Assembly (NCBI GenBank): GCA_017549185.1
Contig: JAFYVJ010000002.1
Coordinates: forward strand, 1-39,690
Direction: 5' to 3'
Source of the DNA: Roseburia sp.
GTDB taxonomy: Bacteria > Bacillota > Clostridia > Lachnospirales > Lachnospiraceae
DNA: 39,690 bases
Below are positions 1 to 39,690 of the stretch, one piece after another. Below the pieces are notes generated by a model. It did not search any database, had not been told where the DNA came from, and saw nothing but the letters and a program-made list of their open reading frames with translations. A program made the position numbers and the translations under genes. Position 1 is the stretch's first letter. Each line of letters begins with the position of its first letter.

Positions 1-332
1 GCTATTGGAAAAATCCAATGTCTACGAATCAAGCCCCTTCTCAAACAGTTGACGTTGCGGATTACGTTTTGTCAAAGCCCCCTATAAGTGATTCTAAGAA
101 ACCTCCAAGGGCACTGTCCGTGTCTATGCAGATAGTTCTCCCAAATTGTCCAACCTTTGGTGGAGACAAAATATCACGTTTCCGGCATCTGCGAAATTAG
201 AATTTCAAACTTTGCGAAACCACAACCTAAATTTACTGTTTAAAATATTGCACTTATATAGAACTTTCAGCGAGATAATCCTGCGGTCGGTGCGTATTCT
301 AAGACCTCGCTAAACGAAAGTTTAGTGTAGCA
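1..332 (-). repeat. Dispersed RNA-like repeat, copy A (left edge)
   Basis: Noncoding stretch homologous, on the minus strand, to copies at about 29.7 kb and 39.5 kb. Reading on the minus strand it opens with AAACTTTCGTTT (312-323), 14 bases after the stop of the HTH gene at 338. Positions 146-257 match copy B (29764-29875) at 108 of 112 positions without gaps. GCAGAT and ATCTGC can close a stem around a smaller hairpin. The distal end holds an ATTGGA/TCCAAT hairpin at the window edge, so the element probably continues outside. A 60-codon reading frame here has no ribosome binding site and is not taken as a gene. Confidence 0.75.
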
Positions 333-4300: not shown

Positions 4301-4366
4301 AACAGGGGATGTTGCAAAATGAATTGTTTAGTGCACTAAATGATTCATTTTACAACATCCCCTGTT
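4301..4366. terminator. 66-bp near-perfect palindrome between uxuA and gntR
   Basis: Two 33-base arms centred at 4333/4334 differ at three positions, two of which still allow G-U pairs. It starts 16 bases after the uxuA stop and ends 2 bases before the gntR stop, so it can act on both convergent transcripts. There is no T-tract, so termination efficiency is uncertain. Its GATGTTGCAAAAT and TTTAGTGCAC segments also occur behind proC (30502-30535) and in weaker form before repeat copy B. Confidence 0.7.
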
Positions 4367-5211: not shown

Positions 5212-5274
5212 GTTACTGTTCACTCAGCAGCTAATCATTTACTGATTTGCTGTGTAAGAACATGATACAAGAGT
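5212..5274 (+). repeat. 143-bp MITE-like element, left-half copy
   Basis: GTTACTGTTCACTC and the following bases match the first 63 bp of the full copies at 22418 and 33800 (the latter inverted) with few differences, ending at GAGT. The right half is missing. It sits in the control region between the operator array and the first symporter. No convincing promoter for that gene was found on its downstream side. Confidence 0.75.
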
Positions 5275-12380: not shown

Positions 12381-12430
12381 GGTGATTGTTACAAAGACAG
12401 ATGTTTTTTGTGGAGAGACAGAAGATAACA

Positions 12431-12570
12431 AGGAGGCCAAATCCTCTCCTCACCAGAGGTTAAACTCTGCAAGCAGAGCTGGATTTTGCTTCGCAAAACA
12501 AGGAGGCCAAATCCTCTCCTCACCAGAGGTTAAACTCTGCAGGCAGAGTTGGATTTTGCTTCGCAAAACA
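12431..12570 (+). repeat. Tandem duplication of a 70-bp hairpin/Shine-Dalgarno module in the glyA leader
   Basis: Units 12431-12500 and 12501-12570 are identical except for two substitutions (68/70). Each starts with AGGAGG, then holds a GAGG/CCTC pair able to mask that site, a CTCTGC/GCAGAG hairpin and a TTTTGC-TTC-GCAAAA hairpin ending just before the next AGGAGG. The third AGGAGG (12571-12576) is the true glyA site. The leader thus displays three Shine-Dalgarno sequences but only one start codon; the two upstream ones lead to no convincing reading frame. Confidence 0.85.
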
Positions 12571-22417: not shown

Positions 22418-22560
22418 GTTATTGTTCATTCAGCAGCTAATCATTTACTGATTTGCTGCGTAAGAACATGATTCAAGAGTGAGCAGGCTCTTTTTGCGAA
22501 GCAAAACTATAAATGAGCCTGCGAATCGTTACTGTTTACGAGGTACGAGTGAACAGTAAC
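22418..22560 (+). repeat. 143-bp MITE-like element, full copy with 8-bp target duplication
   Basis: The ends GTTATTGTTCATTC and GAGTGAACAGTAAC are inverted repeats. AAAAGCTG stands directly on both sides (22410-22417 and 22561-22568), an exact 8-bp target duplication. Inside are a GCAGC/GCTGC hairpin, a GCAGGCTC/GAGCCTGC stem enclosing TTTTGCGAAGCAAAA, and a third end-like sequence GTTACTGTTTACGAG (22528-22542). It carries no reading frame. It separates a possible promoter (TATAAT at 22399) from the lipoprotein gene at 22588. Confidence 0.85.
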
Positions 22561-28241: not shown

Positions 28242-29645
28242 ATGGGAATTTTTAAGAAAAAATCAGATTTAATTCATTCAGTTGCAGAGTTACAACCAGT
28301 AGATTATTCTGCAAATCCAGAAGTGGAGAAAATATATAATCGTTTATTAAAAGGAAGAACACAGTTTGAAATAGCTATGAGTAAAGATATTGAAGCTGTG
28401 ATGCAGATTAGTTCGTTAGATTTGGTTCTTACACAGGGAACGGATAGTTTGCTAGATGTTGCAGGGCATGTAGAACATGCTACATCTATGATTATGGATG
28501 CTGCAGAGAGTTCATCGTTAGTGGCAGCACAAGTAAATTGTCAACATGAAGAACTGACAAAGACGATTATAGATGCATCTGAAGATACTTCCGAAGTGTA
28601 TAAGAAGATTGAAGCTGGACAGGATGAGCTTTCTAATATCAAAGGATTATCTACTGTGACGATCGAAGAATCAAGAGAGATGCAGAAAGATATGGATGCT
28701 CTTTTAGACGTAATTGAGCACATGAATGAAGTGATTTCAGGTATTAATGCGATTTCGTCACAGACAAATCTGTTGGCGTTAAATGCGTCTATTGAAGCTG
28801 CGAGAGCAGGAGAAGCAGGAAAAGGCTTTGCGGTAGTCGCAGAAGAAATTCGTAAACTTGCAGAAGAAACCCAGACGATGACGGCTAATATGGGAGATTT
28901 CGTTGAGAAAATTAAACATGCATCTCATAAGAGTTCAGAGAGTGTTTCTAGCACGATCAAAGCATTGGGAACTGTAACAGAAAAGATTGAAAACGTTTGG
29001 GAAATTAATGATGAGAATAAACGACATGTTTCCAGAGTAAATGATTCTATCAGTTCTCTTGCAGCAGTAAGTGAAGAAATCAGCAGCTCGATGAATGAGA
29101 TGGAAGCACAGGCAGAAAATATCAAGATTCAGTGTGCAGAACTGACTGGAAGTGCAACAAAATTACAAGACATTAGCAAGGGATTAAAAGAATCTACCAA
29201 ACCGGTTGTTCAGATTGAAAAGGTGCTTTCAGAAGCGACAAAACAAATGGGTGAAATGACGGACGATGCATTCTTCCGTATGCAATATAAAGAGTTTGCA
29301 GGATATATGGACCGTGCTATTGCTGCACATGAAGCATGGCTTGCAAATTTAAAGAGAATGGTAGAGGAAGGGACAATTTTGCCATTACAGTTTGATGCCG
29401 CAAAATGTGGATTTGGCCACTTCTATTATTCAATGACACCAAAGACACCAGAAATCCGTGAGATTTGGAAAGAAGTAGAAGGAAAACATAAAAAGTTCCA
29501 TGAATTTGGTAAAGCTGCAAAAGATGCTATTATGAATGAGAATTATTCAGTTGCAAACCAAAAATATAAAGAGGCAGAAAACTACTCACGAGAACTTATT
29601 GCAGAATTTAAGAAGATGAGAGAAATTGCTTTGAAGAAAGCATAA
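28242..29645 (+). CDS. Soluble methyl-accepting chemotaxis protein with CZB domain
   Basis: A 467-residue chemoreceptor lacking membrane helices. The cytoplasmic signalling hairpin contains the conserved tip [20 protein letters not shown] and [20 protein letters not shown] (about 167-207), flanked by long coiled coils. The C-terminal part (about 350-440) is a chemoreceptor zinc-binding domain: the AHEAWL histidine, KCGFGHFYY with the C-G-F-G motif, and [12 protein letters not shown] supplying two more histidines. CZB receptors sense zinc state or oxidants such as hypochlorite. A GAAGGAGAG site lies 6 bases before the ATG. Repeat copy B follows. Confidence 0.93.
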
Positions 29646-29673
29646 AATTATCTTGCTTTAATGTGAGGACTAC

Positions 29674-30048
29674 TGCAAAATTGAACATTTGTTACATTAA
29701 ACTTTCGTTTGTTGAGGTCTTAAAAAACGCACTGACCACAGGATAATCTCGTTTATAATCTTTATAAGTGCAATATTTTAAACAGTAAATTTAGATTGTG
29801 GTTTCAAAAAGTTTGAAATTCTAATCTCGCAGATGCCGGAAACGTGATATTTTGTCTCCACCAAAGGTTGGACAAAATGAAAACAAAGGTGACTGCATAT
29901 TACGGACTACCCGTGTGACTTTTTGTAGAATCCCTTACATGCTGATGTTGACAAAATGTACTTCACCAAAGTCACATCTTTGAAAAGGGACCCGACTCAT
30001 AGGTATTAGAATCATCCAATATCTATAGGTCGGGTCCCTTTGCATTTT
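29674..30048 (+). repeat. Dispersed RNA-like repeat, copy B (complete)
   Basis: The best-preserved copy. A leader resembling copy A (CATTTGTTACATTAAAC) leads to AAACTTTCGTTT (29699-29710); the core 29764-29875 matches copy A at 108 of 112 bases. It closes with GGGACCCGAC (29987-29996) pairing perfectly with GTCGGGTCCC (30029-30038) around an inner stem, followed by TTTGCATTTT, as in a terminator. No reading frame is conserved between copies. It lies in the same orientation as the chemoreceptor gene, starting 29 bases after its stop. Confidence 0.78.
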
Positions 30049-30115
30049 AATGATAAGTAGAATGCTCTATTTCATACCTTGATGAAGCGAAAATATCAGC
30101 ATATTATTGAATTTT

Positions 30116-30169
30116 ATATCAAAAACTCTCTTAAAAAATCATTTTTTTGATATGATAAGAGGATTTTTT
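30116..30169. other. Alternative AT-rich hairpins
   Basis: ATATCAAAAA (30116-30125) pairs with TTTTTGATAT (30144-30153). Alternatively CTCTT and AAAAAATC (30128-30140) pair with AAGAG and GATTTTTT (30157-30169). The second ends in a T-run and could be a terminator. It lies in the long intergenic region between copy B and proC. Confidence 0.45.
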
Positions 30170-30226
30170 GTATAACACAAATATAAGTAGCATTATAACC
30201 ATAACTTCAAGAAGTCATTATGCACG

Positions 30227-30273
30227 TTGGGTATTAGCCTTTCCGTATTCCTGTATAATACCCAAGTTTTTTT
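30227..30273 (+). terminator. Strong intrinsic terminator in gene-free DNA
   Basis: TTGGGTATTA (30227-30236) pairs perfectly with TAATACCCAA (30256-30265), followed by GTTTTTTT. No coding gene ends nearby; the closest upstream transcript would be copy B or an unannotated RNA. Confidence 0.7.
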
Positions 30274-30274
30274 G

Positions 30275-30398
30275 AAAATTGGGTATAGAAAATTGTCTTT
30301 TATATTCAGTATCCAATTTTGTTGAATAAAGAGCTATTTTTATCTGTTTTTCTGAGAGTTTTGGGTATAAAAACCAATCCGAGTTCTATGATACCCAA
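30275..30398. repeat. Two further hairpins with TTGGGTAT stems
   Basis: AAAATTGGGTAT (30275-30286) pairs with GTATCCAATTTT (30309-30320). TTGGGTAT (30361-30368) pairs perfectly with ATACCCAA (30391-30398). With the terminator at 30227 this makes three consecutive hairpins sharing one stem sequence, so arms of different hairpins could also pair with each other. Confidence 0.55.
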
Positions 30399-30489
30399 CT
30401 ACTAAAATTCAAAATCACAAATAGTTTGAAATACCAAAGAATCTTCTATAAATAAAGTATTCATTGTTCTCCTATGTCTGCATTCCGAC

Positions 30490-30535
30490 AAACGAAAGTT
30501 TAATGCACTAAATGATGAATTTTGCAACATCGCTG
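30490..30535 (-). repeat. Short fragment of the repeat leader behind proC
   Basis: On the minus strand GATGTTGCAAAAT, CATTTAGTGCATT and AAACTTTCGTTTG follow the proC stop by 2 bases. The last part is the start of repeat copies A, B and C; the first part equals the arm of the palindrome at 4301. With copy B in opposite orientation this forms an inverted pair bounding 29.7-30.5 kb. Confidence 0.65.
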
Positions 30536-30537
30536 TT

Positions 30538-31356
30538 CTAATTTTTTGAGACAGTCATATCTTTTGATTTTTGTACACAGGCTCTTTGGGCGGTTATTAT
30601 GGCATTGCGGAATCCATTTGCTTCTAAAGAAGCTACGGCTTCAATCGTAGTGCCACCAGGAGAGCATACCGCATCTTTTAAGTCGCCAGGATGTCTACCG
30701 GTTTCTAGAACCATCTTTGCAGAACCTAATACGGACTGGGCTGCAAAGTTATAAGCCATTGCACGAGGCATTCCATCAGCTACAGCAGCGTCTGCCATAG
30801 CTTCAATAAACATATAAACGTAAGCTGGAGAAGAACCAGAAACACCAACGACGGTATCTATCATACTTTCTGTGACAATTTCAGCTTTTCCAAAACATTC
30901 AAATAACTGTTTTACCAGAAAGAGTTCTTCATCAGAGACATTTTGATTGCAACAAAGGGCACTCATTGATTCACCGACAAGAGCAGGTGTATTTGGCATG
31001 GCACGAACTAACTTAATGTCAGAACCTAAAAGCAATTCGATAGATGCGATACTTTGCCCAGCAGCAATTGATACAACAATACAATCCTTTTTCAATGCAG
31101 AAGCGATAGATGGGAGTACTTCTGCAAATTTATTTGGTTTAATGGCTAAAAATAAAATATCACTATTGTTTACAGCTTCCTCATTAGAACCTGCTGTACG
31201 AATCCCATACGCGGAATGAAGATTTTTAAGAGCAGTGGCAGAATAGTCACTTGCAATCACCTGTTCTGGTTCTACGAGGCCTGATTTGCAGATTCCGCCA
31301 ATCATTGCACTGCCCATGTTTCCGGCACCGATAAATCCAATTACTTTTTTTGTCAT
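30538..31356 (-). CDS. proC: Pyrroline-5-carboxylate reductase
   Basis: A 272-residue NAD(P)H enzyme making proline from pyrroline-5-carboxylate. The Rossmann start GFIGAGNMGSAMIGGI, the middle LFLAIKPNKF and VSIAAGQSI, RAMPNTPALVGESMSAL, and the ProC signature near residues 225-245 (HPGDLKDAVCSPGGTTIEAV) are complete. GGAGG lies 11 bases before the ATG. A GGGTTC/GAACCC hairpin (31397-31414) lies upstream. The gene is followed by a leader fragment of the dispersed repeat. Confidence 0.96.
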   Translation of the reverse strand: MTKKVIGFIGAGNMGSAMIGGICKSGLVEPEQVIASDYSATALKNLHSAYGIRTAGSNEEAVNNSDILFLAIKPNKFAEVLPSIASALKKDCIVVSIAAGQSIASIELLLGSDIKLVRAMPNTPALVGESMSALCCNQNVSDEELFLVKQLFECFGKAEIVTESMIDTVVGVSGSSPAYVYMFIEAMADAAVADGMPRAMAYNFAAQSVLGSAKMVLETGRHPGDLKDAVCSPGGTTIEAVASLEANGFRNAIITAQRACVQKSKDMTVSKN

Positions 31357-38727: not shown

Positions 38728-39462
38728 GTGAAGCGTATTTCAGTTGCAATGATTTCTTATCAAGGCGAAAAGTACATAGAGGAACAGTTAGATTCCATTT
38801 TAGCAATTCTCGGTCCAAAGGATGAAGTAATTATATCGGATGATGGTTCTACAGATCGAACGAGAGAGATTCTGGTTCGTTATGAAAGTCAGGATGAGAG
38901 AGTACGTATGATTAATGGACCAAAGGCCGGCGTGAAGAAAAATGTAGAGAATGCATTACGTGCTTGCGAAGGTGAATATATTTTTCTTGCAGATCAGGAT
39001 GATATCTGGATGCCGGAGAAAGTGGAATGTGTATTAGAGGCATTCAAAAGAGATGGAGTAGGCCTTGTGATACATGATGCAACTGTAACAGATGGAAGTT
39101 GTCAGAAAGTAATTTTAGAGTCGTTTTATAGCTTAAAAGGATCTGGGGCAGGTGCTATTAAGAATATATGGAGAAATACGTATATTGGTTGTTGTATGGC
39201 ATTTAAAAGAGATATTTTAGAAGAAGTTCTACCGATTCCGGATTACATAGAGATGCATGACCAGTGGATTGGAGTAATCAACGACCAGCTAAAGAGAGGC
39301 ACCAGCTTTATTCCTCAGAAACTTATCAAATATAGACGTCACGGCAACAATGCATCTGAGATGTCACACTACTCGATTCCACGTATGCTAAAGAATCGTA
39401 TTTTCTTTGTATGGGCACTATTAACAAGGCGTTTTCGAAAAAGCAATCGTTCAGAAAAATAA
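38728..39462 (+). CDS. Family 2 glycosyltransferase, RgpB/EpsO-like
   Basis: A 244-residue GT-A enzyme. ISVAMISYQGEKYIEEQLDS, EVIISDDGSTDRTREIL, the alpha-rhamnosyltransferase-like YIFLADQDDIWMPEKVE, and the C-terminal MHDQWIGVINDQL and RRHGNNAS are characteristic. The start is GTG with AGAGG 9 bases upstream. It lies 108 bases after the previous transferase. Its TAA stop forms the first bases of repeat copy C. Further cluster genes such as a flippase or polymerase, if present, lie beyond the window. Confidence 0.87.
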   Translation: MKRISVAMISYQGEKYIEEQLDSILAILGPKDEVIISDDGSTDRTREILVRYESQDERVRMINGPKAGVKKNVENALRACEGEYIFLADQDDIWMPEKVECVLEAFKRDGVGLVIHDATVTDGSCQKVILESFYSLKGSGAGAIKNIWRNTYIGCCMAFKRDILEEVLPIPDYIEMHDQWIGVINDQLKRGTSFIPQKLIKYRRHGNNASEMSHYSIPRMLKNRIFFVWALLTRRFRKSNRSEK

Positions 39463-39690
39463 ACTTTCGTTTGGCGTAATAGATAGAGAACGCACCGACC
39501 TCAGGATTATCTCGTTCGAGAAACTATAGAAAGTGCGAATATTTTAAATAGTAAATTTAGTTGTGTTAGAGAAAAGTTTAGAAATTCTTTTCGCAGAATG
39601 CCGGAATAACGTTTTGTGTCCACCAACGCGTTGAACAATTTGGAAGAACTATCTGCATAGCACGAACAGGTGCCTGTTGCAGCTTCCTAA
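39461..39690 (+). repeat. Dispersed RNA-like repeat, copy C (right edge, truncated by window)
   Basis: It begins with AAACTTTCGTTTG overlapping the stop codon of the last glycosyltransferase. CGCACCGACCTCAGGATTAT, the core, and the later ATTTGGAAGAACTATCTGCA agree with copy A, but the middle has diverged. GCAGA/TCTGC pairing is kept. The inner hairpin keeps pairing with changed bases (CAAC/GTTG instead of CC/GG with A-T). The element continues past the window. Confidence 0.72.

Follow-up and report, generated by a model that had tools for sequence, protein, structure and literature searches.

A dispersed long DNA palindrome at gene ends in a Roseburia genome and two sister species

Quasi-palindrome correction is a process known for short repeats. 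It reportedly proceeds by strand misalignment (van Noort 2003). The dispersed element that we describe here from Roseburia sp. would share with it a copying at the DNA level by which imperfect inverted repeats come closer to perfection, and differs in that its arms are 110-300 nt long and its mirrored stretch extends to gene ends. REPs measure tens of bases; at 531-632 nt the element lies far beyond that. REP palindromes are reported to be targets of insertion sequences (PMC1525189), and the element resembles them in its apparent insertion into palindromic extragenic DNA (PMC1525189). Prokaryotic MITEs are non-autonomous and have terminal inverted repeats, size variants, foldable transcripts and, in several families, a terminal TA (PMC10969869, PMC2229807). 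The element is like these in its terminal inverted repeats, its size variants and transcripts that would fold, and is probably non-autonomous too; it is unlike them in that nearly all of it is inverted repeat (223-245 bp of pairs in the sister species) and that no parent insertion sequence was identified among two transposase families. The pneumococcal SPRITE, RUP and BOX elements are small interspersed repeats with predicted stem-loops, nearly confined to one species and a close relative and significantly over-represented between convergent genes; they are typically shorter than 200 bp (BOX is modular, 67-637 bp), and SPRITE lies near 3' ends and is terminator-like, its target duplication not being established there (PMC3049150). 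By that published description, our element is similarly restricted to a few relatives, placed in convergent gaps and able to form stem-loops, and it differs in its site-specific outer arms, its long arms of two types and its nested palindromes (PMC3049150). No description of the element itself was found in the open-licence literature, a scope outside which most subscription papers fall.

The window is a whole stretch of 39,690 nucleotides that makes up one entire contig (G000:C16) of an assembly of 78 contigs and 70% completeness. A preliminary description had placed in it a dispersed, RNA-like element of about 350 nt in three copies, A, B and C. What was taken for that RNA is one arm of a much larger inverted DNA repeat: the interval 29674-30048 comprises the left arm and apex of copy B, which runs on to 30501 (Table 1), and copies A and C are halves cut off by the contig ends. 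Many of the underlying observations hold. Copy B starts with AAACTTTCGTTT at 29699-29710, now joined by the inverted end AAACGAAAGTTT at 30490-30501, and self-comparison gives a 14-nt terminal inverted repeat. Similarity to copies A and C exceeds chance (E 2.6e-70 and 1.2e-23), the core match to copy A spans 117 nt at 96% (29759-29875 against 146-262), and the ATTGGA/TCCAAT pair of copy A is found at the window start. The absence of a conserved reading frame is borne out as well: no ATG/GTG/TTG ORF of at least 60 aa lies within 29646-30537, the lack of coding capacity expected of a MITE. The proposed terminator-like 3' hairpin survives in part. Its perfect stem, GGGACCCGAC at 29987-29996 with GTCGGGTCCC at 30029-30038, is present, but it is the centre of the palindrome, its T-rich tail is weak (TTTGCATTTT), and a simple scan for terminators, whose limit to loops of 3-8 may make it miss such an apex, left the apices of copy B and of the complete copy C65 uncalled.

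Table 1. Positions of the element, its parts and neighbouring features in the window
Feature	Position	Strand	Description
Copy B, whole element	29699..30501	.	803 bp, AAACTTTCGTTT to AAACGAAAGTTT
Left arm, copy B	29699..29980	+	type-1 arm, homologous to 9 further type-1 arms in the genome
Apex hairpin, copy B	29981..30044	.	stem GGGACCCGAC/GTCGGGTCCC; 64-nt self-inverted match
Right half, copy B	30045..30501	.	atypical 'type 3', no mirror of the left arm
Outer arm left, copy B	29669..29698	+	
Outer arm right, copy B	30502..30531	-	
Copy A	1..323	-	type-1 arm and part of apex, cut off by contig end
Copy C	39461..39690	+	type-2 arm, cut off by contig end
66-nt hairpin between convergent ORFs	4301..4366	.	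like copy B outer arms, core absent
Left flanking gene of copy B	28242..29645	+	MCP signalling and CZB domains
Right flanking gene of copy B	30538..31356	-	pyrroline-5-carboxylate reductase dimerisation and F420_oxidored domains
Second repeat, ~145 nt	22418-22560; 33942-33800; 5212-5274	+; -; + (partial)	

Copy B is itself atypical. Its type-3 right half matches G000:C14:175336-175854 at 92%, with partial matches at the starts of contigs C33 and C13. The stop codons of its flanking genes lie 53 nt ahead of it on the left and 36 nt from it on the right, and in the intervals between, its two outer arms are 69% alike, probably because they are what is left of a terminator hairpin that belonged to the gap itself. 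The 66-nt hairpin elsewhere in the window may correspondingly be an empty or deleted form of the element. Another dispersed repeat, MITE-like and unrelated to the element, also lies in the window; it measures about 145 nt, has ends like GTTACTGTTCAC/GTGAACAGTAAC and is partially matched three more times in contig C14. At 12427-12566 the window has two tandem copies of a 70-nt unit at 97% identity.

In this genome only C65 is assembled complete, symmetrical and full-length; most other copies are contig-end halves. C65 (C65:21574-22205) forms a 632-nt hairpin of -330 kcal/mol (z -31.8, 20 shuffles), in which the left arm is of one type and the reversed right arm of the other, the two being 84% identical over an alignment with 28 gapped columns. 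Complete units here and in the sister species span 531-632 nt. A single arm has no such fold: 29699-29978 of copy B reaches z -0.61, with 44 of 200 shuffles folding equally well, and the C5 arm z -1.06, with 30 of 200. Since lone arms fold like shuffles, the structure lies between the arms. By inspection, an alignment of 20 arms, which excludes the short copies and four right arms of type 3, divides into 10 of type 1 and 10 of type 2, the equality expected if every full element carries one of each. The linker that follows AAACTTTCGTTT takes a few recurring forms that are found with both arm types alike, as if the inner part flips relative to the outer part. Apex hairpins that differ in sequence remain paired (B, C14a, C75e = C8s, C65). 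Some shorter hairpins belong to this family or at least share its tip, namely C4, C45, C14 (147.7 kb), C35, C51, C52 and C54; read by eye, the short forms in this genome may be internal deletions with junctions TGCA, AAAC/GTTT, TCTCG and ATAATC.

The repeat occupies at least a dozen places in this genome. Among the 30 matches listed in a search with copy B, 4 fall in the window; the other 26 are spread over 23 places, contig-end halves being counted separately; elements are fewer than places because several matches are pieces of one copy and many are such halves. The tip AAACTTTCGTTT occurs exactly at 33 places genome-wide (0 for a reversed control) and stands at both ends of B, C65 and C14a, as the terminal inverted repeats of a MITE would, and, again as for a MITE, the dispersed copies adjoin unrelated genes. 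TTGCAAAATTAAT, with one mismatch allowed, occurs at 41 places; by eye, the 20 stretches fetched yielded one half-like hairpin (L119), the rest being coding DNA or ordinary hairpins. A one-off look-alike exists too: the inverted-repeat element at 600-1330 of L039 (G000:C19), whose arms measure about 125 nt (87%), has the same AAACGAAAGTTT tip and is otherwise unrelated in sequence.

The element sits just after gene ends, mostly between convergent genes. Under a rule that asks for an ORF of at least 90 codons, directed toward the arm and with its stop within 100 nt, 26 of 31 arms pass, compared with 1606 of 4120 (39%) random intergenic flanks (p 4e-7). Arms at contig ends pass in 16 of 18 cases. 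The five misses are C64e, C49e, C14a_R, C4_R and C45_R, and among two-ended copies the right side has no ORF ending within 100 nt in three of six (C4, C45, C14a). A codon-score gene caller, which omits some genes that the ORF rule sees, has 23 of 31 arms faced by a gene, 22 of them at 0-87 nt past the stop. The 32 nt just beyond the tip motif, compared over 11 elements, have a mean likeness of 0.49 between elements and 0.64 within an element, and none of 600 re-pairings reached the latter value; this is expected if the outer stretches belong to the host gap's own hairpin. Arms contain 18 of the 156 contig ends of this genome, and the element accounts for these breaks in the assembly.

Long hairpins are not a general property of such gaps. 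We surveyed 426 kb of this genome, 380 kb of its relative G067 and 400 kb of a genus member that lacks the element, G047, and these three surveys reject the idea that all convergent gaps in these genomes are giant palindromes. Here, a hairpin of at least 60 bp occurs in 1 of 16 convergent gaps (copy B) and 0 of 193 others. The corresponding counts in G067 are 4 of 18 and 1 of 137, a rate that is not unbiased because its contigs were picked for holding copies; those 5 gaps of 155 are four element sites and a site orthologous to an occupied one in a further relative, G021. In G047, hairpins of this length were absent from 20 convergent and 159 co-directional gaps, and 1 of 21 divergent gaps (G047:C1:1-400000, L213-L232) holds one of 103 bp, so long hairpins are not exclusive to the element. 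The median longest hairpin of convergent gaps is 27 bp in G000, the present genome, and 24.5 in G067.

With a complete copy as query, the family appears in 2 of 61 other genus members at 70-78% identity: G067 (7 matches, 5 loci) and G021 (2 matches, 1 locus), which are also the nearest by the reductase gene adjoining copy B (72% and 71%). A stricter pattern had no match among the 61, and copy B as query had none in 23 other genus members, a set that includes G021 and is without G067, and gave one 61-nt match in another family. Each of the six sister loci is a complete palindrome, 531-593 nt long and with 223-245 pairs. The cores agree with one another at 69-95% and differ from those of this genome by about a third. 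The outer 110 nt of each arm behave otherwise: left and right of one site agree at 0.77-0.87, and different sites at 0.59 vs 0.56 when shuffled, that is, they are unrelated. On 8 of 12 sister sides (L186 left, L187 left and both sides of L189, L190 and L191) the hairpin reaches to no more than 30 nt from the stop of an inward-pointing ORF; the other four sides are L186 right, L187 right and both of L188. The flanking genes are co-directional at L186 and L188 and convergent at the remaining four loci, the right gene of L189 having been found in two of three flank analyses. Judged by eye, the outer arms of L186 and L191 mirror the coding end of the neighbouring gene.

Further afield, the whole element had no match in phage and plasmid collections, nor did three patterns in viral contigs. 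An exact pattern of 20 fixed bases found one place among 84,980 species, in an Acidobacteriota assembly, which we take as chance, and a search of the family, with 2 candidates per genome scored, gave matches in 4 of 396 other genomes, each 26-41 nt long. In two further genus members, G045 and G047, the AAACTTTCGTTT tip was rejected as the same element, being part of a different hairpin. These two genomes have a repeated hairpin around AAAAACTTTCGTTTTT (L092-L094, L096-L099, L101) with a stem unrelated to the element. G067, for its part, has ordinary-looking terminators with the common stem GGGACGGTTCTTTTG (G067:C1:187535-187640 and G067:C9, L211, about 1460-1510), perhaps another small repeat family.

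Comparison of orthologous sites bears on mobility. The G021 locus (G021:C42) is the same site as G067:C1:30504-30638, its flanking genes being 91.6% and 92.9% identical in DNA. The core is present in G021, and G067 has instead a gap of 135 nt in which the same outer arms form a 72-bp hairpin, an empty orthologous site of the kind expected for a MITE; insertion in the one and deletion in the other would both give this state. A CTTTTTT direct repeat flanks the core in G021, and it fits insertion with duplication and deletion by slippage equally. Most element ends are flanked by TA, which is itself palindromic and indistinguishable from flank, and there is no clear target-site duplication. Next to a partial copy (C18) and a short one (C14b) stand genes whose G067 orthologs (80% and 84% identical) are followed by an ordinary terminator. 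C3 was set aside as a comparison, since its G067 match (60%) is to the second gene from the element and not to the adjacent one. The site of copy C appears occupied in both genomes, because its preceding gene is 71% identical to that preceding the G067_C1 palindrome. We infer insertion rather than deletion at each site, and the many copies beside unrelated genes, together with the occupied and empty pair and the ordinary terminators of G067 at C18 and C14b, support mobility of the element. The mobility that the preliminary description offered as one of two readings is thus supported.

The other reading, selection on RNA structure, requires an account of why the arms stayed matched while their sequence changed. 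A comparison of five non-redundant copies shows a double change at 45 of the 143 core pairs, against a mean of 15.6 and a maximum of 27 in 200 shuffles and 3-7 when partners were slid by 1-3 columns, a control over which the true pairing is favoured because the structure was derived from the same sequences; all seven copies give 63 over 167 pairs. Strong pairing and double changes of this kind, downstream of stop codons, are what a structured non-coding RNA or conserved 3'-UTR element would leave if the palindrome's transcript were functional and its pairing under RNA selection. That reading is also helped by the two subfamilies of this genome, in which 6 of 26 differing columns changed identically in both arms, 2 differently in both and 18 in one arm (another 38 columns were passed over; when slid, the arms share on average 0.14 identical changes and never more than 1), and by the short copy C14b, in which transitions make up 7 of 10 arm mismatches. 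The details of the changes nonetheless argue against it. Of the pair cells, 602 are unchanged, 57 are double Watson-Crick, 14 are one-sided wobble and 35 are broken; of the 49 arm mismatches in C65, 34 are transversions (3/10, 7/12 and 6/15 in short copies); and over four two-armed copies, on the strand read, G.U and A.C mismatches number 17 vs 19 (10/5, 1/6, 1/4, 5/4), about equal and so without wobble bias. Lone arms are unstructured, and the outer arms, though unrelated in sequence, are well paired too. Rfam (4227 families) gave no match at gathering score for the window, L035, L036 or L039, and nothing credible at E up to 10, the best sub-threshold scores being far under gathering; for this reason HEARO/omegaRNA or another described class, raised earlier as a possibility, is not supported. 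Many double changes with few wobble intermediates suggest arm-to-arm DNA copying more than RNA selection, which is the weaker explanation because such intermediates are scarce and the compensation, strong as it is, lies between the arms of a giant palindrome and not within a 350-nt unit. We regard a functional RNA as unlikely.

Placement and apex structure could also be explained by domestication, with copies kept because their apex and outer stems end transcription of both neighbours. The 22 of 31 arms at 0-87 nt past the stop of a scored gene and the pairing of apices unlike in sequence agree with such a bidirectional terminator; ordinary hairpins occupy most convergent gaps of the same genomes, however, the scan with its loop limit called neither apex of B and C65, and an ordinary terminator takes its place at two sites in the sister, which leaves this explanation distinctly improbable. 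Somewhat more has to be granted, in what we still consider a doubtful proposal, to site-specific long palindromes that predate insertion and serve as its target, the outer arms owing nothing to the element. The empty G067 site retains its unique 72-bp hairpin without the core, and the minimal hairpins C35, C51, C52 and C54 have unlike stems. Yet the long-hairpin gaps of G067 (5/155) are all element sites or the ortholog of the G021 site, and the arms of L186 and L191, by eye, mirror a neighbouring coding end in a manner resembling outward copying. Inverted chimeras from assembly or library preparation might be suspected from the arms at contig ends (18/156), but the arms are unequal and their neighbours differ, and two other assemblies contain complete palindromes, with double changes between species, so that an artefact is scarcely credible.

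We consider it probable that the element is a non-autonomous, MITE-like palindrome nested in terminator hairpins, and that inverted copying has homogenised its arms and perhaps lengthened them outward. The unit would be an inverted pair of unequal arms, type 1 facing type 2, around a short apex hairpin, and would spread by insertion into gaps 3' of genes, mostly convergent ones, inside the gap's own terminator hairpin. The arms may be kept alike by DNA-level copying, through template switching or gene conversion within the hairpin, and in the sisters flanking DNA may have been copied outward in inverted order up to the stop codons, giving rise to site-specific outer arms. The mirrored coding ends in L186 and L191, judged by eye, are the main support for outward copying; the copying mechanism, the enzyme and any effect on transcription are presumptive. 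IS630 and IS30 are not supported as partners: in the 70%-complete assembly there was no DDE_3 (IS630-type) match, and the IS30 model had one weak match below its cut-off. More tentatively, we can envision a self-enlarging palindrome, which is possible and on balance not the expected outcome: a core lands in a terminator, repeated inverted copying of the flanks, which replication or repair would carry out, yields a stop-to-stop palindrome that evolves in concert, and the core may leave while the site-specific palindrome stays.

Well-studied bacteria tolerate long DNA palindromes poorly or do not maintain them stably. A small clade nevertheless retains palindromes of 531-632 nt at gene ends, with arms that match. 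The family provides a natural system in which arm-to-arm DNA copying is measurable apart from RNA selection, and it carries a warning that strong "covariation" within a repeat is alone no proof of a functional RNA.
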